Assembly (NCBI RefSeq): GCF_020447265.1
Contig: NZ_JAJADR010000005.1
Location: forward strand, 1 to 64,000
Length of the DNA stretch: 64,000 nucleotides
Direction of reading: 5' to 3'
DNA from: Hymenobacter lucidus
GTDB taxonomy: Bacteria > Bacteroidota > Bacteroidia > Cytophagales > Hymenobacteraceae
The position numbers and the translations under genes are program-made. Under the pieces are notes generated by a model. The model was not told the DNA's origin, did no database searches, and saw nothing but the letters and a program-made list of their open reading frames with translations. Positions 23,914-37,082 of this stretch are shown one piece after another. Each line of letters opens with the position of its first letter. Positions within the stretch are counted from its first letter, which is position 1.

Positions 23914-26271
23914 ATGAAACGCGCAGCTAAGGTTCTGCTTCCCCTCCTGGTACTCGCCGTTCTTGGCTGGGGCCTCGACCAGCTATTTCCTGTACCACCG
24001 CCGCCGCAGTACTCGCCCATTGTGCTGGCCGCCGATGGCTCGGTGCTACACGCCTTTCTGAACCCGACCCAGAAATGGCGCATGAAAACCGAGCTGCGCG
24101 AAATTACGCCGGCCCTGCGCAACACTATTATAGAGAAGGAAGACCGGTATTTCTATTATCACTTCGGCGTCAATCCACTGGCTATTCTCAAAGCGGCCGG
24201 CCGCAACCTGACGGGTACGGGCCGTACTACCGGGGCCAGCACTATTACAATGCAGGTAGCCCGCCTGCTGGAACCCAAAGAACGCACAGTAGGTAACAAG
24301 CTGCTGGAAATGCTGCGGGCCGTGCAATTGGAAGCACACTACAGCAAGGCCGAAATTCTGCAACTCTACCTGAACCTGGTACCCTACGGTGGCAACATTG
24401 AAGGCGTGAAATCGGCCGCCCTGCTCTACTTTCAGCAGCCGCCCGACTACCTCTCCCTAGCTCAGACCGTGACGCTGGCCATCATTCCGAACCGGCCGCG
24501 GGGCTTGGTGCTGGGCCGCCACAATGAGGCTATCCGGCAGGAGCGCAACCGGTGGCTGCGGCGCTTCGGACAGCAGGGTCTGTTTCCGAAGCAAGATATT
24601 GAAGATGCCCTGCTGGAGCCGCTGGACGCGCAGCGCCATGCAGCCCCGGCGCTGGCGCCCCACCTGGCGCGGCGGCTGGTGCGGCAGTTTCCGGGCCAGG
24701 CCAGCGTGGCCTCCACGTTGCAGCGCGGCAAGCAGGCCAAAGCTGAAGACCTGACCCGTAACTACGTGCGCCGCCTCCACGAATTGGGTATCAGCAATGC
24801 TGCCGTACTGGTAATCAACAACCGCACCCGGGCCGTGGAAGCCTACGTAGGCTCCGCCGATTTTCGGGATGCGGCCAATAAGGGGCAGAACGACGGCGTG
24901 CAGGCCATCCGCTCACCCGGCAGCACGCTCAAGCCGTTTCTGTACGCCTTGGCGTTGGACAAAGGCCTCGTGACACCTAAGCTGCTGCTGCCCGATGTAC
25001 CCACCAACTTCGGGGGCTACCAGCCTGAGAACTTCGACAAACGCTGTAATGGCGAAATACCCCTGGACCGTGCTTTGGCCTACTCGCTCAACATTCCGGC
25101 CGTCCGCACCCTCAATGAGCTGGGTGTGCCCGTTTTCACGGCTAAGTTGCGGGAAGCCGGCTTTCGGACGGTAGCTAGAAGCGCCCCGCGCCTGGGACTG
25201 AGCACGATTCTGGGCGGCTGCGGCGCTACTCTGGAAGAACTTACCAACCTGTATGTGACGCTGGCCAACGGCGGCGGGTATGCGCCGCTGCGCTTCGCTA
25301 GGAGGAATGAAGAACTGAGGATTGCGCAGGAGGCCCGCGCTGGCAATCGGAAGCAAACCCAGCCGACCAAACCAATTCAGAATTCGCAGCTATTCTCCCC
25401 TGCCGCCGCCTTTCTTATTACCGATATTCTGGCCCAGCTTACCCGGCCCGATTTACCGGTGGGCTATGAAACCAGCATCCGGCTACCCAAAATTGCCTGG
25501 AAAACCGGCACCAGTTACGGCCGCCGCGACGCCTGGAGCATCGGCTATAATAAGGAGTACACCATCGGAGTGTGGGTCGGCAACTTCAGCGGGCAGGGTA
25601 GCCCCGCCCTCACCGGCTCCGATATTGCCACGCCTTTGCTCTTCGACCTGTTCAATACGCTGGCCTACAACTCGCCCAACAACTGGTTTCAGCCCCCAGC
25701 TACCCTCGATTTTCGGCTGGTGTGCGCCGAGAGTGGCCGCCCACCCGGCGAAAATTGCCCCAACCAGCTCATCGACTACTTCCTGCCCGGTGTGTCGCCC
25801 AGTCTGCGCTGCCAGCACCAGAAGGAAGTGCTGCTCTCGGCCGATGGGCAGTATGTGTACTGCCGCGCCTGCGCGCCGGCGGCCGGCTACCGACGCGAGC
25901 TATATCCCAATCTGCTGCCGGAAGTAGCCTCTTTTAAGGAAGCCCAGGGCCTGCCCTACCGTCGGCTGCCGGCCCACAACCCGGCGTGCCAGCTTGTGCG
26001 CGGCGGCCGGGAAAAAGCGCCCAGCATTACTTCACCCCTAGCTAATACCGAGTACGTGCTCAACAAAGGCGAGCAGCAGCAACTCCTGCTCAGCTGCGCC
26101 ACCGACAACGAGGTACGGCAGGTGTCGTGGTACGTGAATGACCAGTTTCTGCGCACGGCGGCAGCTACCGAGCGGGTGTTTTTCCGTCCGCCGGCCGGCA
26201 CACTGAAGATATCCTGCGCCGATGACCACGGCCGCAACACCAATATTCAGGTGGTGGTGAGTGAAATGTAA
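23914..26271 (+). CDS. pbpC: Penicillin-binding protein 1C
   Basis: 785 residues. One membrane helix (about 6-25), a glycosyltransferase-51 domain (about 45-220) with the catalytic EKEDRYFYYHFGVNP motif and TGASTITMQVAR, then a transpeptidase domain with SxxK at S337-K340 (GSTLKPF) and KTGTS near 535, and a carboxy-terminal BiPBP_C beta domain (about 690-785). It polymerises and may cross-link peptidoglycan in the periplasm. In many bacteria pbpC is adjacent to the alpha-2-macroglobulin gene, which fits repair of damage together with protease trapping. Confidence 0.95.
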   Translation: MKRAAKVLLPLLVLAVLGWGLDQLFPVPPPPQYSPIVLAADGSVLHAFLNPTQKWRMKTELREITPALRNTIIEKEDRYFYYHFGVNPLAILKAAGRNLTGTGRTTGASTITMQVARLLEPKERTVGNKLLEMLRAVQLEAHYSKAEILQLYLNLVPYGGNIEGVKSAALLYFQQPPDYLSLAQTVTLAIIPNRPRGLVLGRHNEAIRQERNRWLRRFGQQGLFPKQDIEDALLEPLDAQRHAAPALAPHLARRLVRQFPGQASVASTLQRGKQAKAEDLTRNYVRRLHELGISNAAVLVINNRTRAVEAYVGSADFRDAANKGQNDGVQAIRSPGSTLKPFLYALALDKGLVTPKLLLPDVPTNFGGYQPENFDKRCNGEIPLDRALAYSLNIPAVRTLNELGVPVFTAKLREAGFRTVARSAPRLGLSTILGGCGATLEELTNLYVTLANGGGYAPLRFARRNEELRIAQEARAGNRKQTQPTKPIQNSQLFSPAAAFLITDILAQLTRPDLPVGYETSIRLPKIAWKTGTSYGRRDAWSIGYNKEYTIGVWVGNFSGQGSPALTGSDIATPLLFDLFNTLAYNSPNNWFQPPATLDFRLVCAESGRPPGENCPNQLIDYFLPGVSPSLRCQHQKEVLLSADGQYVYCRACAPAAGYRRELYPNLLPEVASFKEAQGLPYRRLPAHNPACQLVRGGREKAPSITSPLANTEYVLNKGEQQQLLLSCATDNEVRQVSWYVNDQFLRTAAATERVFFRPPAGTLKISCADDHGRNTNIQVVVSEM

Positions 26272-26474
26272 AAAACTGCTGTTACGACGCCCAATCCACT
26301 TTTTTGACACTCACTAAAGCACCTGTTGGAATTTACTCCATTACTTTAAGTTATAGTAACAGAATAGTTATTTTACCTATATCCTCAACCACCCCTCATT
26401 AAATTCACAACACATTGCATTTCAACTGATTGATTACAAAAATTATTAAACACCAGTATCTGATTTCACTATAA

Positions 26475-26507
26475 TTTGCAATTATAAAATTTCTGCTACT
26501 ACATTTG
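26475..26507 (+). promoter_or_regulatory. Bacteroidota promoter of the sulfur locus
   Basis: TTTG at 26475-26478 and TACATTTG at 26500-26507 match the Bacteroidota -33 and -7 elements (TTTG and TAnnTTTG) with a 21-bp spacer. Transcription would begin near 26515, about 20 bases before the riboswitch. Confidence 0.8.
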
Positions 26508-26535
26508 CAGTATCAATTCTTTACCCATCAAAGGA

Positions 26536-26635
26536 TTGTTTTTATACAGAGGCGTGGAGAGACAGGCTCGACGAAACGCCGGCAACCCCCAGTGATGAGC
26601 TGGAACGGTGCCAAGTCCTGACCATATAAAAACAA
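26536..26635 (+). promoter_or_regulatory. SAM-I-type (S-box) riboswitch
   Basis: The closing stem P1 is an exact 11-bp pair: TTGTTTTTATA (26536-26546) with TATAAAAACAA (26625-26635). Inside are the S-box landmarks in order: AGAGGCGTGGAGAGAC, GAAACGCCGGCAACC, and GGTGCCAAGTCC. It precedes sulfate assimilation genes, a fitting context for S-adenosylmethionine repression. The GTG start of the Cys-rich reading frame is only 8 bases after P1, so ligand-stabilised P1 would pair the A-rich stretch in the position of that ribosome binding region. This switch could therefore control leader translation rather than form a classical terminator. Confidence 0.88.
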
Positions 26636-26642
26636 CGACGCC

Positions 26643-26738
26643 GTGAAAACCTTGTCCAACGCCCGCACTGCTTCTCCTACCTTCTTTGCTGTACAGCATG
26701 GATGTTGTGGCATGATGATGTGCTGTCGGTGTTGCTAG
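26643..26738 (+). CDS. Candidate Cys/Met-rich leader peptide of the sulfur locus
   Basis: A 31-codon frame from GTG at 26643 to TAG at 26736. It starts V/M-K-T-L and ends HGCCGMMMCCRCC: six Cys and three Met codons among the last eleven residues. No Shine-Dalgarno is present, as usual in this phylum; an A-rich stretch precedes the start. Such a run of the pathway's end products is the hallmark of an attenuation leader in which ribosome stalling reports charged tRNA-Cys and tRNA-Met. It lies between the SAM riboswitch and cysH. A second mini-ORF with the same K-T-L opening and three Cys lies at 33069. The alternative is a chance frame; the codon run makes this less likely. Confidence 0.65.
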   Translation: MKTLSNARTASPTFFAVQHGCCGMMMCCRCC

Positions 26739-26774
26739 CTGCTCACGCCCCCTGCTTTTCCTGCCGTGCCCCAA

Positions 26775-26836
26775 GGCCTTAGCTAGCTAAGGCCCATTGT
26801 CGCACACACCTTTTCCGACTACCGCAGGATAGTCGG
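26775..26836 (+). promoter_or_regulatory. Candidate attenuator hairpins before cysH
   Basis: GGCCTTAGCTAGCTAAGGCC at 26775-26794 is a perfect palindrome. The stop-codon region of the leader contains GCTAGCT (26734-26740), complementary to AGCTAGC at 26781-26787, so a stalled ribosome could favour a different fold. A second stem, CCGACTA / TAGTCGG, lies at 26815-26836. No T-run follows, so a Rho-dependent or translational mechanism is more likely than intrinsic termination. Confidence 0.45.
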
Positions 26837-26920
26837 CCCGCTGCGCCGCAACCTGCCTGCGCCCGGGCCCTTCGCACAGCCGGCATTTTCTCCTGAGAAA
26901 AGCCACATCCTCTTTCCATC

Positions 26921-27682
26921 ATGCAAGTAGCCTCTGAGGCGCTGGTCTACGACTTGCGCCAGCAGCTCGCCGGGCTTCCCGCCGTCGAGCTGCTGGCCAC
27001 CATAGCGGCGCAGTTTCCCGATCAGGCCGTTTTTTCGACTTCCTTCGGCCTCGAAGACCAGATTATCACGCACCTGATTTTCGAGCATAATCTGCCGATT
27101 AAAGTCTTTACCCTCGACACGGCCCGCAACTTCCAGGAAACCTACTCCACCTGGAATAAGACGCTGCTGCGCTACGGCAAAGCCATTGAGCCCTACTTCC
27201 CAGTACAGGCCAGCGTGGAAGAGTTGCTGCTCACCAAAGGGCCCAACAGCTTCTACGACAGCGTGGATAACCGCAAGGAATGCTGCGGCATCCGGAAGGT
27301 AGAGCCGCTGAACCGGGCCTTAAAGGGTCAGCAGGCGTGGTTTACCGGCATCCGGGCCGAGCAGTCGGCCAACCGCCAGGACATGCACGCGGTGGAATGG
27401 GACGCAGGCCACCAGCTCATCAAGTTTCACCCGCTCTTCGACTGGACTTTTGAGCAGTGCTGGGCTTTCGTGCACGAGCACAGCATTCCCTTCAACCCGC
27501 TGCACCAGCAGGGTTTCGTGAGCATCGGCTGCGCGCCCTGCACCCGGGCCATCAAGGCCGGCGAGGATTTCCGGGCCGGGCGCTGGTGGTGGGAAGATCA
27601 GTCGGCCAAGGAATGTGGGCTGCACAGCACCCACAACGGCCCCGACCCCGTGGTCGAGCCAGTCAACGCTTCCACTCTGTAG
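26921..27682 (+). CDS. cysH: Phosphoadenylyl/adenylyl-sulfate reductase, APS type
   Basis: 253 residues. PAPS_reduct (PP-loop-like) fold with STSFGLEDQIITHL near 40. The iron-sulfur pattern C121-C122 (KECCGIRK) and C204-x-x-C207 (GCAPC) marks the class that reduces adenylyl sulfate directly using a [4Fe-4S] cluster, and the catalytic Cys is C232 in ECGLH. The product is sulfite plus AMP. No APS kinase (cysC) was found in the locus and CysN has no kinase extension, which agrees with APS as substrate. First structural gene after the double leader. Confidence 0.95.
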   Translation: MQVASEALVYDLRQQLAGLPAVELLATIAAQFPDQAVFSTSFGLEDQIITHLIFEHNLPIKVFTLDTARNFQETYSTWNKTLLRYGKAIEPYFPVQASVEELLLTKGPNSFYDSVDNRKECCGIRKVEPLNRALKGQQAWFTGIRAEQSANRQDMHAVEWDAGHQLIKFHPLFDWTFEQCWAFVHEHSIPFNPLHQQGFVSIGCAPCTRAIKAGEDFRAGRWWWEDQSAKECGLHSTHNGPDPVVEPVNASTL

Positions 27683-28748: not shown

Positions 28749-30026
28749 ATGGACCTTCTCCGATTTATCACCTGCGGCAGCGTCGACGATGGCAAAAGCA
28801 CGCTCATCGGCCGTTTGCTCTACGATTCTGACTCCGTTTCCTTGGACGTGCTGGCGGCGCTGGAAAACCGGCCCACCGTGCATGGTACCGTGGACCTGGC
28901 CTTGCTGACCGACGGCCTGCGCGCCGAGCGGGAACAGGGCATTACCATCGACGTGGCGTACAAGTATTTCACCACGCCGCGCCGCAAATTCATTATCACC
29001 GACGCGCCCGGCCACGTGCAGTATACCCGCAACATGGTCACGGGCGCTTCGACGGCCGACCTGGCCATTGTGCTCGTAGATGCGCGGCAGGGCGTGGTAG
29101 AGCAGACGCGCCGCCACTCGCTCATTGCCTCGCTCGTGGGCATCCGGCATTTCGTGCTGGCCGTGAATAAAATGGACCTGGTGGGCAACGACGAAATGGT
29201 GTTCGACCAGATTGTGGCCGACTACGCCGCCGTGGCCGACCAGCTCAAGCTGCCCCACGTCACGGCCATTCCGCTGAGCGCCCTGCTCGGCGACAACATC
29301 GTGACGCGCTCCAAAAACCTAGGCTGGTACACGGGCCCAAGCCTGCTGGAACATCTGGAAAGCGTACCGGCCTTTGAGGAAGCAACCATTGCCGACGCCC
29401 GCTTTCAGGTGCAGTATGTAATCCGGCCCCAGACCGACGACTACCCCGATTACCGCGGCTACGCCGGCCGCATCCAGAGCGGCACCTACCGCCGTGGCGA
29501 CCGGGTCCACATCTTGCCCAGCGGCCAGGAATCGGTGATTGAGGCCATTGAGGTAAACCAGCAGGAAGTGGAAAGCGCCGCCGCGCCCCAGGCCGTGGTC
29601 ATTCGCCTCGCCGACGACGTGGACATCAGCCGCGGCAATTCTATCGTGCCCGTGGGCAGCCAGATTCACGTGGCTAAGGAGCTGGAAGCCACGATTTGCT
29701 GGATGGACGAGCGGCCCCTGTGGCCCGGCCGCAAGCTGCTGGTGCAGCACCACTCGGCGGTGGTAAAGGCCGTTGTGTCGGCCATTGTATACAAAGTGAA
29801 CGTGCGCACCTACGGCCGGGCCGCTACTGAATCGGCCCAGCTGAACGACATCGTGGGCATCCGCCTGAAAACCGCTTCTCCCCTAGTCGTGGATTCTTAC
29901 CAACAGAACCGCGCTACCGGCTCCTTTATCCTAGTGGACGAACTGAGCGGCGACACGCTGGCCGCCGGCATGGTGGATGCCATGCAGAACAGCTTCGTGC
30001 CCGAGCCGCTGGGCTTCACGATTTAG
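28749..30026 (+). CDS. cysN: Sulfate adenylyltransferase subunit 1 (GTPase)
   Basis: 425 residues, an EF-Tu-like GTPase: G1 GSVDDGKST (10-18), G3 DAPGH (85-89), G4 NKMD (140-143), then two beta-barrel domains. It couples GTP hydrolysis to APS formation by CysD. There is no APS-kinase extension (bifunctional CysNC proteins are about 630 residues), consistent with a direct APS reductase. Confidence 0.96.
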   Translation: MDLLRFITCGSVDDGKSTLIGRLLYDSDSVSLDVLAALENRPTVHGTVDLALLTDGLRAEREQGITIDVAYKYFTTPRRKFIITDAPGHVQYTRNMVTGASTADLAIVLVDARQGVVEQTRRHSLIASLVGIRHFVLAVNKMDLVGNDEMVFDQIVADYAAVADQLKLPHVTAIPLSALLGDNIVTRSKNLGWYTGPSLLEHLESVPAFEEATIADARFQVQYVIRPQTDDYPDYRGYAGRIQSGTYRRGDRVHILPSGQESVIEAIEVNQQEVESAAAPQAVVIRLADDVDISRGNSIVPVGSQIHVAKELEATICWMDERPLWPGRKLLVQHHSAVVKAVVSAIVYKVNVRTYGRAATESAQLNDIVGIRLKTASPLVVDSYQQNRATGSFILVDELSGDTLAAGMVDAMQNSFVPEPLGFTI

Positions 30027-30036
30027 TTGAACGGTT

Positions 30037-30143
30037 GTAGAGACGCATACTTGCGTCTCCCGCCAGAACTATCGTCGCCTGACCACGAGTCACGCCTGAC
30101 CAACAACATCAGCAACGATTGAGACGCAACTATGCGTCTCTAC
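30037..30143. repeat. Paired palindromic repeats (copies 2 and 3)
   Basis: 30037-30059 is the exact reverse complement of 1068-1090; 30121-30143 is the same element in direct orientation with one mismatch. The two outward copies enclose about 60 bases and could pair with each other, as in paired REP elements. The second copy overlaps an ATG at 30132 that would otherwise look like a start for the next gene. Confidence 0.75.
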
Positions 30144-30155
30144 ACATCCAACGCC

Positions 30156-30947
30156 ATGTCCAACTTCCAACCTTCCGCACCCCGCCTGACCGTGCTCGGC
30201 GCGGGGCCCGGCGACCCGGAACTCTTCACGCTGAAAGGTGTGCGGGTGCTGGGCGAAGCCGACGTGGTGCTTTACGACGCACTGGCCAACAACGACCTGC
30301 TAAGCTACGTGCGCCCCGAAGCCCGGCAGGTATTCGTGGGCAAGCGGCGGGGCATGCGCAGCTACTCCCAGGACGAAATCAACGGCCTCATCGTGGACTA
30401 CGCCCGGCGCTACGGCCACGTCGTGCGGCTCAAGGGCGGCGACCCGTTCGTGTTTGGCCGGGGCCGCGAAGAAATGCTTTACGCCGAACAGCACGGCCTG
30501 CTGACTGACTATGTGCCGGGCATCAGCAGCGCAGTGGCTGCGACCGGCAGCGTGGGAATTCCAGTGACGCACCGCGGCGCCAGTGAAGGCTTCCAGGTCA
30601 TCACGGCGACTACGGCCACCGGCGGCCTGTCGGCGGCCGTGACTGAGGCAGCCCGCTCGCGCACCACTACCGTCATCCTGATGGGGCTGAGCCAGCTAGG
30701 GCGCATCGTGGAAATCTTCGGCCAGCACGGGCAAAGTGAGGTACCGGCCGCCATTATCCAGAACGGGACGCTGCCTGAGGCCCGGCTCGTGACGGGCTCG
30801 GTGGCCCAGCTGCCGGCCCGCGCCGCCGCGGCCAGCATCGGGGCCCCGGCCATCATCATCATCGGGGAAGTGGCGCGTCTGGCTCACGCCAGCGCGGCTG
30901 GGCCGGCAGTGTTTTCCGAGCTACTTTCCTACGCAGAGGTGGCTTGA
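30156..30947 (+). CDS. cobA: Uroporphyrinogen-III C-methyltransferase
   Basis: 263 residues from the ATG at 30156, chosen over 30132 because that one lies inside the palindromic repeat. SAM-dependent tetrapyrrole methylase fold: VLGAGPGDPEL (13-23), GGDPFVFGRG near 92, YVPGISSAVAATGSVGIPVTHR. It makes precorrin-2, the first step to siroheme, the cofactor of the sulfite reductase encoded downstream. The next step is supplied by the dehydrogenase half of the gene at 38863. Confidence 0.95.
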   Translation: MSNFQPSAPRLTVLGAGPGDPELFTLKGVRVLGEADVVLYDALANNDLLSYVRPEARQVFVGKRRGMRSYSQDEINGLIVDYARRYGHVVRLKGGDPFVFGRGREEMLYAEQHGLLTDYVPGISSAVAATGSVGIPVTHRGASEGFQVITATTATGGLSAAVTEAARSRTTTVILMGLSQLGRIVEIFGQHGQSEVPAAIIQNGTLPEARLVTGSVAQLPARAAAASIGAPAIIIIGEVARLAHASAAGPAVFSELLSYAEVA

Positions 30948-33185: not shown

Positions 33186-36125
33186 ATGAGAAAAATAGTT
33201 ACGACATCTATCCTGGCACCCATTTTCGCGGCGGCCAGCATTGCCCCGGCTCTGGCCCAGGATGATATAATTGCCATCAGCGGCGTGGTGCACGAAACCG
33301 GCACCAACCAGCCCCTACCCGGCGTGAGCATCAGCGTGAAAAACGGCACGACCGGCGTGCTGAGCGACGCCAACGGCAAGTTTGCACTGAAGTCGAAGCT
33401 CAAGTTTCCCTTTACCCTCGTCTTCAACATGCTGGGCTACGACGCCAAGGAAGTCGAAATAGTGAGTGCGACCAGTCCGCTGTCGGTGTCGATGTCGTCG
33501 CGGGCCTTGCTCACGAACGAGGTGGTAGTGTCGGCTTCGCGGGTGGAGGAAAGCCGGCTCCGCTCGCCGGTGGCCATTGAGAAACTCGACATCCGGGCCA
33601 TCAAAGAAACGCCCGCGCCGAGCTTCTACGACGCGCTGGAAAACGTGAAGGGCGTGCAGATGACGACCAGCAGCCTCACCTTCAAGGTGCCCAACACCCG
33701 CGGCTTCAACATTCCCAACAACTTCCGCTTCATGCAGCTCGTGGATGGCGTAGACATGCAGGCCGCCACACTGGGCGTGCCGCTTGGCAACGCCATTGGG
33801 CCCACGGAGCTCGATATTGCCAGCGTGGAAATCACGCCCGGCGCGGCTTCGGCCCTGTATGGCATGAATGCCATCAACGGCATGGCCAACCTGACGACCA
33901 AGAGCCCTTTCACCTACCAGGGCCTGAGTGTGTACCAGAAAGTGGGCGTGAACCACGTGGACGGCATCGACCGGGACCCGAGCGCGCTGACCGAAACGGC
34001 CGTGCGCTGGGCCCAGGTGCTGGGCGCCTCGCAGCGCTGGGCATATAAGGTAAACGGCAGCTTTCTGCGCGGCACCGACTGGCTGGCCAACACCCAGATT
34101 GACCAGAACCCGCAGAGCGCCTCATCGGCCAACCCGCGCTTCTCTGAGCTCAGCGGCGAGCAGAACCCCGCCGCCGACCTCTGGAACCGCTACGGCGACG
34201 ACAACGCCGGCAACGTGGCCATTACCATTCCCTACAACGGCCGGACCGAAACCTTCAACGTGCGCCGCACCGGCTACTACGAGCGGGACCTGACAAACCC
34301 CATCGTGCGCAATGCCAAGGTGGACGCCAGCCTACACTACAAGCTGACCGATAAGCTGGAGCTGAGCTACGGCTACCGCTTCGGGCTGATGGACGGCGTG
34401 TTTCAGCGCGGCAACAAGATTCAGCTCGACGGCGTGACGGTGCAAAACCACAAGGTGGAGCTCAAGGGTCAGGACTTTACGGCCCGTGCCTACATGCTCA
34501 TCGAAGACACCGGCGACTCCTACAACCTCAACCCGCTGGCCCTGAATATGGATTTGCAGAACGGCGCGACCAGCACCACTAACGTGGCCGGCACCGGCAC
34601 GGGCTGGGGCGACAAGTTCCGGGCTGCGCTGCTGAGCCAATTGAACGGCGGCGCTTCCCTGGCCGACGCCATGCAGCAGGCCCGCGTGGCTGCCGACGCC
34701 GGCCGGGCCGTGCCCGGCACCGCCGCCTTTAATGACCTCAAGAACCAGATTGTAAAAACCAACAACTGGGACAGCGGCGTGAACGTGAAGGGTGCCCCCG
34801 TGCCCGGCGGCGCGGCCCTCACCCAGCGCAGCCACACCTACCACACCGAGGCCATCTGGAATCTGGGGCAGCGCATCAAGTTTGCCGACGTGCTCGTTGG
34901 CGCCGACTCCCGCCTCTACGAGGTCATTCCGGACGGCAACAATTTCGTGGATTTCAGCAAGCCTCTGGCCGAGCGCACCCAGGCCGGTGGCAACAACCAG
35001 TACTACAAGAAAGTGGGCGGCTTCGTGCAGGCCAGTCGGGAGCTGTTCAGCAACCGCCTCAAGCTGACCGCCTCGCTGCGGGCCGACTATAACCCCGAGT
35101 TTAACCCCAAGCTCAACCCGCGGGTGGCGGCCGTGTACACGCTGGCAGCCAAGCACAACTTCCGGGCTTCATATCAGAACGGCTGGCGCTTCCCGTCGCT
35201 GTTTGAGGCTCTGTCGTTCGTGAATAACGGCAACGTGCGCCGCGTGGGCGGCCTGGCCCGCGTGAACGAAGGCCTCAACTACCTCGACAACTCCTACACC
35301 CTGGCCTCGATTTCGACCTTCAACGCGGCCGTTAACCAGGCCGTAGCTGCTGACAACAGCAGCAGCACTACCGACCAGAAACGCACCCGCGCCGCGCTGG
35401 CCAACCGCGACCTGCTGCAAGTAGGCAACCTGCCCACCGAGCAGCCCGAGCAGATCAACGCTTACGAGGTGGGCTACCGTAGCGTGCTGTTCGACAACCG
35501 CGTGTCCGTCGATGCCGACGCGTACTATAATGTGTACTCCGGCTTCCTGGGCCAGGTGGAAGTGAGCGTGCCCAAAAACGCGGCCGGCCAGCAGGTGCAG
35601 GTGGGAACGGATGATGCCGTGCTGGCCGCCCTGACCAGCAACCGCAGCGCCCGCCAGGACCGGTACCGCGTGTACACCAACGCCCTGAACAAGTACCGCA
35701 GCTACGGCTCCACGCTGGGCCTCACCTACAACTTCTTCCAGAAGTTCACCGTGGGTGGCAACGTGAGCTACAACGACATCCGGGCCAATACGCAGTCCGA
35801 CATCTTCGTGACGGGCTTCAACACGCCGAAGTGGGCCACCAACCTGAATTTCGGCAACCGCGAAGTGGTGCGCAACCTGGGCTTCAACGTGGTGTGGCGC
35901 CGCCAAAGCTCCTTCCTCTGGGAAAGCCCATTGGCCAACGGCCAGGTGCCCACCTACCAAACCGTGGACGCGCAGGTCAACGTGCGAATTCCTAACCTGA
36001 AAACGACCATCAAAGTAGGCGGGGCCAACCTGCTCAACAACCGCTACATCCAGTACGCCGCCGGCCCCACGATTGGCGGTTTGTACTACGTGGCCCTAAC
36101 GTTTGACAACACGGTAATCCGGTAG
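33186..36125 (+). CDS. TonB-dependent receptor of the sulfur locus
   Basis: 979 residues. A signal peptide ends near 25 (APALAQ), a carboxypeptidase-like beta domain follows (about 30-115, GVSISVKNGTTGVLSDANGKF), then the plug (about 120-245, with LRSPVAIEKLDI, RGFNIPNNFRFMQLVDGVDM, SALYGMNAINGMANL) and a barrel to an aromatic-rich end (YYVALTFDNTVIR). It is not a SusC type and has no SusD partner. Being inside the sulfate assimilation cluster, behind a Cys mini-ORF, it probably imports a sulfur compound such as a sulfonate or sulfate ester, but the substrate cannot be read from the sequence. Confidence 0.92.
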   Translation: MRKIVTTSILAPIFAAASIAPALAQDDIIAISGVVHETGTNQPLPGVSISVKNGTTGVLSDANGKFALKSKLKFPFTLVFNMLGYDAKEVEIVSATSPLSVSMSSRALLTNEVVVSASRVEESRLRSPVAIEKLDIRAIKETPAPSFYDALENVKGVQMTTSSLTFKVPNTRGFNIPNNFRFMQLVDGVDMQAATLGVPLGNAIGPTELDIASVEITPGAASALYGMNAINGMANLTTKSPFTYQGLSVYQKVGVNHVDGIDRDPSALTETAVRWAQVLGASQRWAYKVNGSFLRGTDWLANTQIDQNPQSASSANPRFSELSGEQNPAADLWNRYGDDNAGNVAITIPYNGRTETFNVRRTGYYERDLTNPIVRNAKVDASLHYKLTDKLELSYGYRFGLMDGVFQRGNKIQLDGVTVQNHKVELKGQDFTARAYMLIEDTGDSYNLNPLALNMDLQNGATSTTNVAGTGTGWGDKFRAALLSQLNGGASLADAMQQARVAADAGRAVPGTAAFNDLKNQIVKTNNWDSGVNVKGAPVPGGAALTQRSHTYHTEAIWNLGQRIKFADVLVGADSRLYEVIPDGNNFVDFSKPLAERTQAGGNNQYYKKVGGFVQASRELFSNRLKLTASLRADYNPEFNPKLNPRVAAVYTLAAKHNFRASYQNGWRFPSLFEALSFVNNGNVRRVGGLARVNEGLNYLDNSYTLASISTFNAAVNQAVAADNSSSTTDQKRTRAALANRDLLQVGNLPTEQPEQINAYEVGYRSVLFDNRVSVDADAYYNVYSGFLGQVEVSVPKNAAGQQVQVGTDDAVLAALTSNRSARQDRYRVYTNALNKYRSYGSTLGLTYNFFQKFTVGGNVSYNDIRANTQSDIFVTGFNTPKWATNLNFGNREVVRNLGFNVVWRRQSSFLWESPLANGQVPTYQTVDAQVNVRIPNLKTTIKVGGANLLNNRYIQYAAGPTIGGLYYVALTFDNTVIR

Positions 36126-36132
36126 AAAGGAA

Positions 36133-36268
36133 CTCCCCTCCTTAGATAAGGAGGGGTGCCCGAAGAGCGGGGTGGTTGACCGCCGTTGAACGACTCTTTA
36201 GCACTAACTCTAGCAAGTCGTTCTGGTGTGGTCAACCACCCCTAGCCCCTCCTTATCTAAGGAGGGAA
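36133..36268. repeat. Long inverted repeat between the TonB and DUF2490 genes
   Basis: The outer arms CCCTCCTTAGATAAGGAGGG and CCCCTCCTTATCTAAGGAGG are palindromes themselves, and inner arms GGGGTGGTTGAC / GTCAACCACCCC also pair, giving a nested cruciform of about 130 bp with a spacer rich in ACTCT. It has the form of a small non-autonomous mobile element (MITE-like). Confidence 0.75.
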
Positions 36269-36299
36269 ACTAGGATTCTAACTCTAGCCAACTTCTTTC

Positions 36300-37082
36300 A
36301 TGAAACGCTTGCCCCTGCTAACCATCCTCCTGTTCCTGCTCGCCGCCTCACCGCTGCGCGCCCAGAAAGAGTATGTGCAGGAGCGGCAAACCTGGCTGGG
36401 CGTATTTAACCAGACGCGCTTTTCCCAGCGCTGGGGTTCCTGGACCGACCTGCACCTGCGCCTGCACGACCAGTTTGTGCAAGAGCCTTTCCAGAGCGTG
36501 GCCCGGTTCGGCCTCACGTACTATCTCACCGACGACGTGCGCCTGACCGGCGGCTACGCCTACGTGCACCACTTCCCCGACGGGGCCCGCACCATCGGGC
36601 AGGCCGAGCACCGGCCCTGGCAGCAGGTGCAGTGGTTTACCAAGTTCCCCAAGGCCCGACTGATGCAGTGGGTGCGGCTGGAGGAACGGTTCCGCCGCAC
36701 GATTCGCAGCAACGAGCAACTCGACGAATTTGACTTCAACTACCGCACCCGCTACAACGCGGCCCTGTTTCTGCCGCTGAGCAAGCGCGGGTTTGAGCCG
36801 GGCGGGGTGCAGTTTCTGTTGAACAACGAGGTGATGATGAATTTCGGCAAGGAAATCCGCCTCAACTACTTCGACCAGAACCGCCTGTTTGCCGGCCTGG
36901 TGTACCAGCTCAACAAGCACGCCCAGCTGCAGGGCGGCTACATGCATCTGTTTCAGCAGCTGCCGGCCGGCAATGTGTACCGCAACCAGCACACCATCCG
37001 GCTTTTCTACTTCCACAATTTCGATTTGCGGCCCGCCGTGGCGGCAGCTCCCACCCCATCTTCCGTAATTCCCCAACCGTAA
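36300..37082 (+). CDS. DUF2490-like outer-membrane beta-barrel protein
   Basis: 260 residues. Signal peptide about 1-21 (ending LRAQ), then alternating amphipathic strands with many aromatic residues, as in DUF2490 proteins, small outer-membrane barrels of unknown function. The QTRFSQRWGSWTDLHLRLHDQF and YHMHLFQQ-like segments fit. Its stop overlaps the cysI start (TAATG), so it is translationally coupled to sulfite reductase, which points to a role in sulfur uptake or envelope adaptation linked to the upstream TonB receptor. Confidence 0.75.
   Translation: MKRLPLLTILLFLLAASPLRAQKEYVQERQTWLGVFNQTRFSQRWGSWTDLHLRLHDQFVQEPFQSVARFGLTYYLTDDVRLTGGYAYVHHFPDGARTIGQAEHRPWQQVQWFTKFPKARLMQWVRLEERFRRTIRSNEQLDEFDFNYRTRYNAALFLPLSKRGFEPGGVQFLLNNEVMMNFGKEIRLNYFDQNRLFAGLVYQLNKHAQLQGGYMHLFQQLPAGNVYRNQHTIRLFYFHNFDLRPAVAAAPTPSSVIPQP

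Follow-up and report, generated by a model that had tools for sequence, protein, structure and literature searches.

Upstream of cysH, at the head of a sulfate-assimilation operon, the window that we analysed (the whole 64-kb stretch of Hymenobacter lucidus DNA) carries a SAM-I riboswitch aptamer directly followed by a short open reading frame (ORF) that ends in a run of cysteine codons. This stacked arrangement, pointed out in the initial annotation of the sequence, was confirmed by an Rfam covariance search, by conservation in the genus and by an excess over shuffled sequences. It probably works as a two-stage RNA gate for sulfur supply, in which SAM would gate translation of the leader, ribosomes would stall on Cys codons and Rho would provide the output. 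The features of the regulatory region are:

26475-26507, + strand: Bacteroidota-type promoter, TTTG (26475-26478), 21 nt, TACATTTG (26500-26507); read from the sequence
26536-26635, + strand: SAM-I riboswitch aptamer with its P1 stem; Rfam RF00162
26624-26642, + strand: A-rich 3' strand of P1 and 7-nt spacer, probable leader initiation region that SAM-held P1 would shut; start-P1 spacing and predicted unpairedness
26643-26738, + strand: leader ORF, GTG start, 31 codons, TAG stop; sequence and open frame across the genus
26646-26702, + strand: N-terminal part of the leader, C-rich and G-poor, candidate Rho-loading stretch if untranslated; C-G excess and low structure
26703-26735, + strand: candidate regulatory codons CCGMMMCCRCC (6 Cys, 3 Met), the last 11 codons; Cys conservation and TGT/TGC exchange
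26739-26920, + strand: intercistronic stretch, 182 nt, with no intrinsic terminator; terminator scan of 26270-27000
26775-26794, + strand: perfect 20-nt palindrome GGCCTTAGCTAGCTAAGGCC (8-bp hairpin), not conserved in sister species; sequence and alignment
26815-26836, + strand: hairpin CCGACTA-CCGCAGGA-TAGTCGG; two compensatory changes

The aptamer was the sole Rfam match at gathering threshold within the window. The RF00162 covariance model matched positions 26539-26632 of the plus strand over its full length (1-108) with 73.5 bits (E 2.5e-15), where the gathering score is 44.4, and at the level of sequence the element thus qualifies as a whole SAM-I aptamer. Its P1 stem is an exact 11-bp helix (26536-26546 pairing with 26625-26635). 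Both the S-box with this stem and the outcome of the covariance search proposed along with it were therefore as anticipated. At 73 of 79 cysH loci of the genus (2 after shuffling), the leader is preceded by a TAnnTTTG box, the sigma-A box of flavobacteria (PMC9723704), mostly at 131-133 nt from the leader ORF; in the window this distance is ~135 nt.

The leader peptide of the window reads VKTLSNARTASPTFFAVQHGCCGMMMCCRCC, and the 31-codon frame with six Cys and three Met among its last eleven codons is as originally described. The leader does lie directly behind the aptamer, with a spacer of 7 nt between P1 and the GTG, the previously given 8 bases counting to the G of the start codon. GTG is a weak start, and in Bacteroidota there is no Shine-Dalgarno site that could serve as a check on initiation. 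In many Hymenobacter leaders, the first two Cys codons overlap with a small helix (ACAGCA/TGTTGT, window ~26690-26714) that could be a pause helix.

The sulfate assimilation genes announced behind the leader were borne out by Pfam domains and gene order, and the predicted genes from cysH on form a sulfate-assimilation operon in the order cysH, cysD, cysN, tetrapyrrole methylase, cysJ-like gene, TonB-dependent receptor, DUF2490 protein, sulfite reductase and sirohaem-synthase/TauE fusion:

26921-27682, + strand: cysH (PAPS/APS reductase); Pfam PF01507
27754-28656, + strand: cysD (sulfate adenylyltransferase subunit 2; PAPS_reduct domain); Pfam PF01507 and gene order
28749-30026, + strand: cysN (sulfate adenylyltransferase GTPase subunit); Pfam PF00009 and gene order
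30132-30947, + strand: tetrapyrrole methylase (SUMT-like, sirohaem branch); Pfam PF00590
31124-32956, + strand: cysJ-like flavoprotein; Pfam PF00258, PF00667 and PF00175
37082-38797, + strand: sulfite reductase haemoprotein (cysI-like); Pfam PF01077 and PF03460

The genes for the TonB-dependent receptor and the DUF2490 protein (window 33186-37082) are situated inside this operon.

Conservation of the leader in Hymenobacter

Our sample of the genus comprised 120 genomes, 81 of them with cysH. A simple motif retrieved the aptamer core upstream of cysH at 76 loci and missed three more (L044-L046), of which L044 was confirmed by Rfam; the Cys leader was open at 79 of the 81 cysH loci. Among the 76 distinct leaders, most non-Cys columns drift, while the first Cys of the block (column 24) is Cys in all 76 and the second and the terminal ones in 71 each, changes at Cys columns being mostly between TGT and TGC. 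The expectation of the initial annotation that the Cys run would be kept while other codons drift thus held, and the absence of a conserved Cys run in homologous leaders, which would have spoken against it, was not what the alignment revealed. Single-nucleotide codon differences between related leaders fell mostly on the third position, and 40% of them were synonymous, versus 27.5% expected without constraint. Judging from these substitution patterns, constraint on the leader is weak overall and strong at Cys. The Cys codons of the leaders are TGT in 334 cases and TGC in 113, versus 2 and 21 in five genes of the window; TGT being rare in those five genes and common in the leaders, the leaders prefer the rare codon.

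The role of Met is secondary. In Hymenobacter it accounts for 13.6% of tail residues, versus 2.8% in the remainder of the leader, yet at other loci roughly one leader in two lacks Met altogether. The double tRNA signal of Cys and Met suggested earlier consequently retains its Cys part, with its conserved codons, and its Met part has lost ground; Met as a universal second codon signal was rejected. A CC-x-M motif is recurrent in Hymenobacter leaders.

In several relatives, one half of the arrangement is lost or degraded. At L049 (genome G006), Rfam finds no aptamer before cysH and the leader is intact, its start now being ATG (a mir-515 match at this locus was far below its gathering score and was ignored). 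L098 (G035) likewise has an intact leader, behind a decayed aptamer of 38.6 bits, under the gathering score. Conversely, L114 and L115, from the near-identical genomes G072 and G071, have an in-frame TAA at leader codon 10 and have kept both cysH and the aptamer (sound in L114, the one checked). The leader, kept without an aptamer, thus seems to have a value of its own, and either half can be lost. These aptamer-less and leader-broken relatives constitute natural controls.

Recurrence at other loci and in other lineages

The genome of the window contains five SAM-I aptamers, four of them with Cys leaders. Besides the one at the cysH locus, the five aptamers precede a gene with a TonB-type receptor start-like product (L002, Cys leader ending ...QGCCGMMCCAVCMPAPGLSC), an amino-acid permease gene (L003, leader ending ...GCCCCC), metY (L005, leader ending ...MCCWKQCCCCC) and metH (L004, aptamer without a Cys leader); the gene names for L002-L005 rest on sequence reading and on similarity among loci. 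Order-wide, the aptamers at metY, metX, cysH and TonB-type loci, and also at a permease, have behind them leaders with uninterrupted runs of 4 to 9 Cys codons and with N-terminal parts that are unrelated; one of these leaders (L217) ends in nine Cys. At least four Cys in the tail were found across the order at 19 of 30 metY and 5 of 5 cysH loci, versus 0 of 24 metH, 0 of 16 CGS and 0 of 3 homoserine dehydrogenase loci, and a frame with such a tail arose in less than 1% of cases in shuffled downstream sequences. Overall, the leader was present before 33 of 46 sulfur-supply genes versus 0 of 45 metH, CGS, HSD or metK genes, with a Fisher p value (2e-14) that is only indicative because the loci are not phylogenetically independent. 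A microsatellite origin of the Cys runs was ruled out, as TGT and TGC are mixed in 22 of 25 runs.

The second element is dispensable in some lineages, since at several metY loci (L136, L139, L153, L192 and L208) the aptamer is followed by a short frame with no Cys run, where the second gate seems to have been lost or never gained. Loci L008, L011, L013, L014, L016, L019 and L024 combine the aptamer with a T-tract terminator and precede genes of ~400 amino acids that match none of the reference classes.

In named genomes, a scan detected the aptamer with a Cys leader in Pontibacter, Mucilaginibacter, Lewinella and other Saprospiraceae, Cesiribacter, Nafulsella and Crocinitomicaceae, with Rfam confirmation of the aptamer for one Mucilaginibacter and for Cesiribacter andamanensis. 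A sample of 70 aptamers from elsewhere in the phylum did not include any with such a leader, so the layout is patchy in Bacteroidota. It is far wider than one operon, spanning several Bacteroidota orders and several gene classes. One record bearing a gammaproteobacterial name (L326, Glaciecola amylolytica THG-3.7) has an aptamer whose score equals the gathering threshold and, behind it, a leader with six Cys like that of the Flavobacteriales locus L275, which may reflect mislabelling or transfer.

A proposed two-stage gate and its alternatives

The start of the leader lies 19-23 nt from a fixed point of P1 in 32 of 36 leader loci, and the distance from the leader stop to cysH is long and variable in the genus (about 127-260 nt). 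This near-fixed spacing on one side and variable distance on the other are what gating of leader initiation by the riboswitch predicts, and the aptamer appears suitably placed to control initiation of the upstream ORF (uORF). In the window, the 3' strand of P1 lies within AUAUAAAAACAA; with the 5' strand of P1 removed, positions -20 to +3 are predicted to be unpaired at 0.76 on average in the genus. SAM-I platforms with a ribosome-binding site on the 3' side of P1 were described by Barrick and Breaker (PMC2258182), and in Bacteroidota, which have no Shine-Dalgarno sites, initiation is governed by mRNA structure and by nucleotides further upstream, among them adenine at -3 (PMC6847099).

In the mechanism that we infer, SAM binding would close P1 and capture the A-rich stretch upstream of the GTG, preventing initiation of the leader, and at low SAM P1 would open and the leader would be translated. 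In a second stage, the ribosome would meet the Cys codons right before the stop and wait there when Cys-tRNA is scarce; since the Cys block closes the frame, a ribosome lacking Cys-tRNA would at the same time occlude the RNA immediately past the stop. The output is the least certain step. C-rich leader and intercistronic RNA, untranslated or cleared of ribosomes, might let Rho terminate transcription, and a ribosome paused at the terminal Cys codons might shield this RNA and allow RNA polymerase to reach cysH. The operon would then be fully on only when SAM and Cys are both low. The weak GTG start, the in-frame stop in L114 and L115 and the metY loci whose short frame has no Cys run speak against this mechanism. 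The central idea of the initial annotation, two sulfur signals in series, is well supported by these comparative data. We also lean towards a more general reading, a two-input RNA logic gate of Bacteroidota that would sense SAM and then Cys-tRNA, and that would act in several orders on sulfur-supply rather than methionine-only genes.

Several observations bear on the output. No terminator-like site was found when 26270-27000 was searched for intrinsic terminators. Compared with shuffled sequences, no excess of structure was detected in the Cys-run region (mean z -0.11) or past the stop (0.02), and the 5' part of the leader has less structure than its shuffled counterparts (mean z of +0.85 across 76 loci). 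The C-G excess is higher in the leader than in the downstream gene at all 34 of 34 leader loci (C minus G per nt of 0.136 in leaders versus -0.005 in non-leader SAM 5' UTRs), a composition only suggestive of Rho loading, as rut sites are not reliably predictable. A rho gene is present. The lack of a terminator and of a structure excess, the C-over-G bias, the low structure and the presence of rho would together favour Rho over a classical attenuator.

Classical or translational attenuation would use the same two sensors, with the position of the leader ribosome switching helices that form a terminator or hide the cysH start. We regard this as a possible but rather unlikely output. The hairpin at 26815-26836 (GACTA-loop-TAGTC) keeps it alive: two compensatory changes preserve it in a subset of the genus of 12 members, including the window and L037-L042, L047, L051, L098, L101 and L116. 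In addition, inspection shows many Hymenobacter leaders in which the helix ACAGCA/UGUUGU overlaps the initial two Cys codons, and, according to a citation in the accessible text of PMC13236596, the Cys uORFs of mycobacteria have been characterised as translation attenuators. Nevertheless, the locus does not display the U-tract terminator hairpin and competing antiterminator of trp-type attenuators; no genus-wide attenuator helix was found in Hymenobacter, nor a shared one at metY loci. The mean z values of about 0 and the long and variable distance from the leader stop to cysH also argue against it. The initial annotation had proposed as output element a palindrome pairing with the stop region of the leader. 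The palindrome is indeed present, and the pairing was rejected, since it is not kept in the alignment of sister species and neither a structure excess nor a terminator accompanies it.

A gate in series also has to be weighed against two independent regulators lying side by side, in which the aptamer would act on transcription and the Cys leader separately, SAM not gating leader translation. The persistence of the leader with a degraded aptamer or none (L098, L049) and the leaderless aptamers before metH and CGS genes would agree with such independence. The tight spacing between P1 and the leader start would not, and no terminator follows the aptamer of the window, whereas CGS loci of the same genus have a hairpin and then a T-tract (GGAAGGGCTTTTTTT); we consider this explanation unlikely. 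It is quite improbable that the peptide itself acts, for instance as a small thiol, metal or redox-active protein: despite the recurring CC-x-M motif in Hymenobacter, different families have unrelated N-terminal parts, their tails contain anything from CC to nine Cys, and both the position and the associated genes agree with a leader that reads codons. A chance open frame is refuted by conservation and recurrence.

Relation to known regulatory systems

Actinobacteria are known to have Cys leaders (PMC1262725; Shell 2015, PMC4633059), and the title of a further study, Canestrari 2020 (Mol Microbiol 114:93, cited in PMC9094748 and PMC13236596), calls the ORFs there leaderless. The mycobacterial ones are likewise short ORFs that precede sulfur genes, have Cys codons close to the stop and lack a terminator hairpin, and Seliverstov et al. 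tentatively proposed Rho for them (PMC1262725). The Hymenobacter leader shares with this set a short ORF, a Cys run beside the stop, a position before sulfur genes and Cys codons conserved across species. It differs in being located behind a SAM aptamer and in another phylum, no riboswitch being described for the mycobacterial leaders in the accessible text of these sources. Because a promoter box and the aptamer lie upstream of the ORF, its transcript is probably not leaderless, and the Hymenobacter leader would work like the mycobacterial set without being classified as one of its members.

Riboswitch-controlled uORFs have been reported in Mycobacterium tuberculosis, Mbox-rv1805A (PMC12810186) and the ppe2 B12 switch (PMC11260477). 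Judging from the accessible parts of these papers, they are similar in that an aptamer gates a small upstream ORF, with Rho-dependent termination in the Mbox case, and differ in that those parts describe no run of codons for a pathway amino acid and, hence, no second nutrient input of this kind. The uORFC-8-2 motif upstream of cysS in Rhodobacterales (PMC8632094) also has tandem conserved Cys codons in a leader but, unlike the window locus, it contains two stems and an intrinsic terminator and no riboswitch. S-box riboswitches with an intrinsic terminator belong to the same aptamer family as that of the window, which lacks the terminator. A flavobacterial transcriptome study refers broadly to attenuation by leader peptides (PMC9723704). 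We found no report of a SAM riboswitch joined to a Cys leader on searching the full texts of an open-access collection, outside which most subscription papers lie, so that priority is unproven. Each half is known elsewhere, and their combination in series and the gene logic appear to be new.

If the proposed gate is correct, it would be a naturally occurring case of a riboswitch connected in series with a ribosome-sensing leader, by which one RNA could balance the demands for cysteine and methionine. The distribution of the sensors would follow this logic, with genes that gain or fix sulfur carrying both and those leading from Cys or homocysteine to Met carrying the SAM sensor alone. Reporters of Cys-tRNA could be made from the leaders, which contain as many as nine Cys codons.
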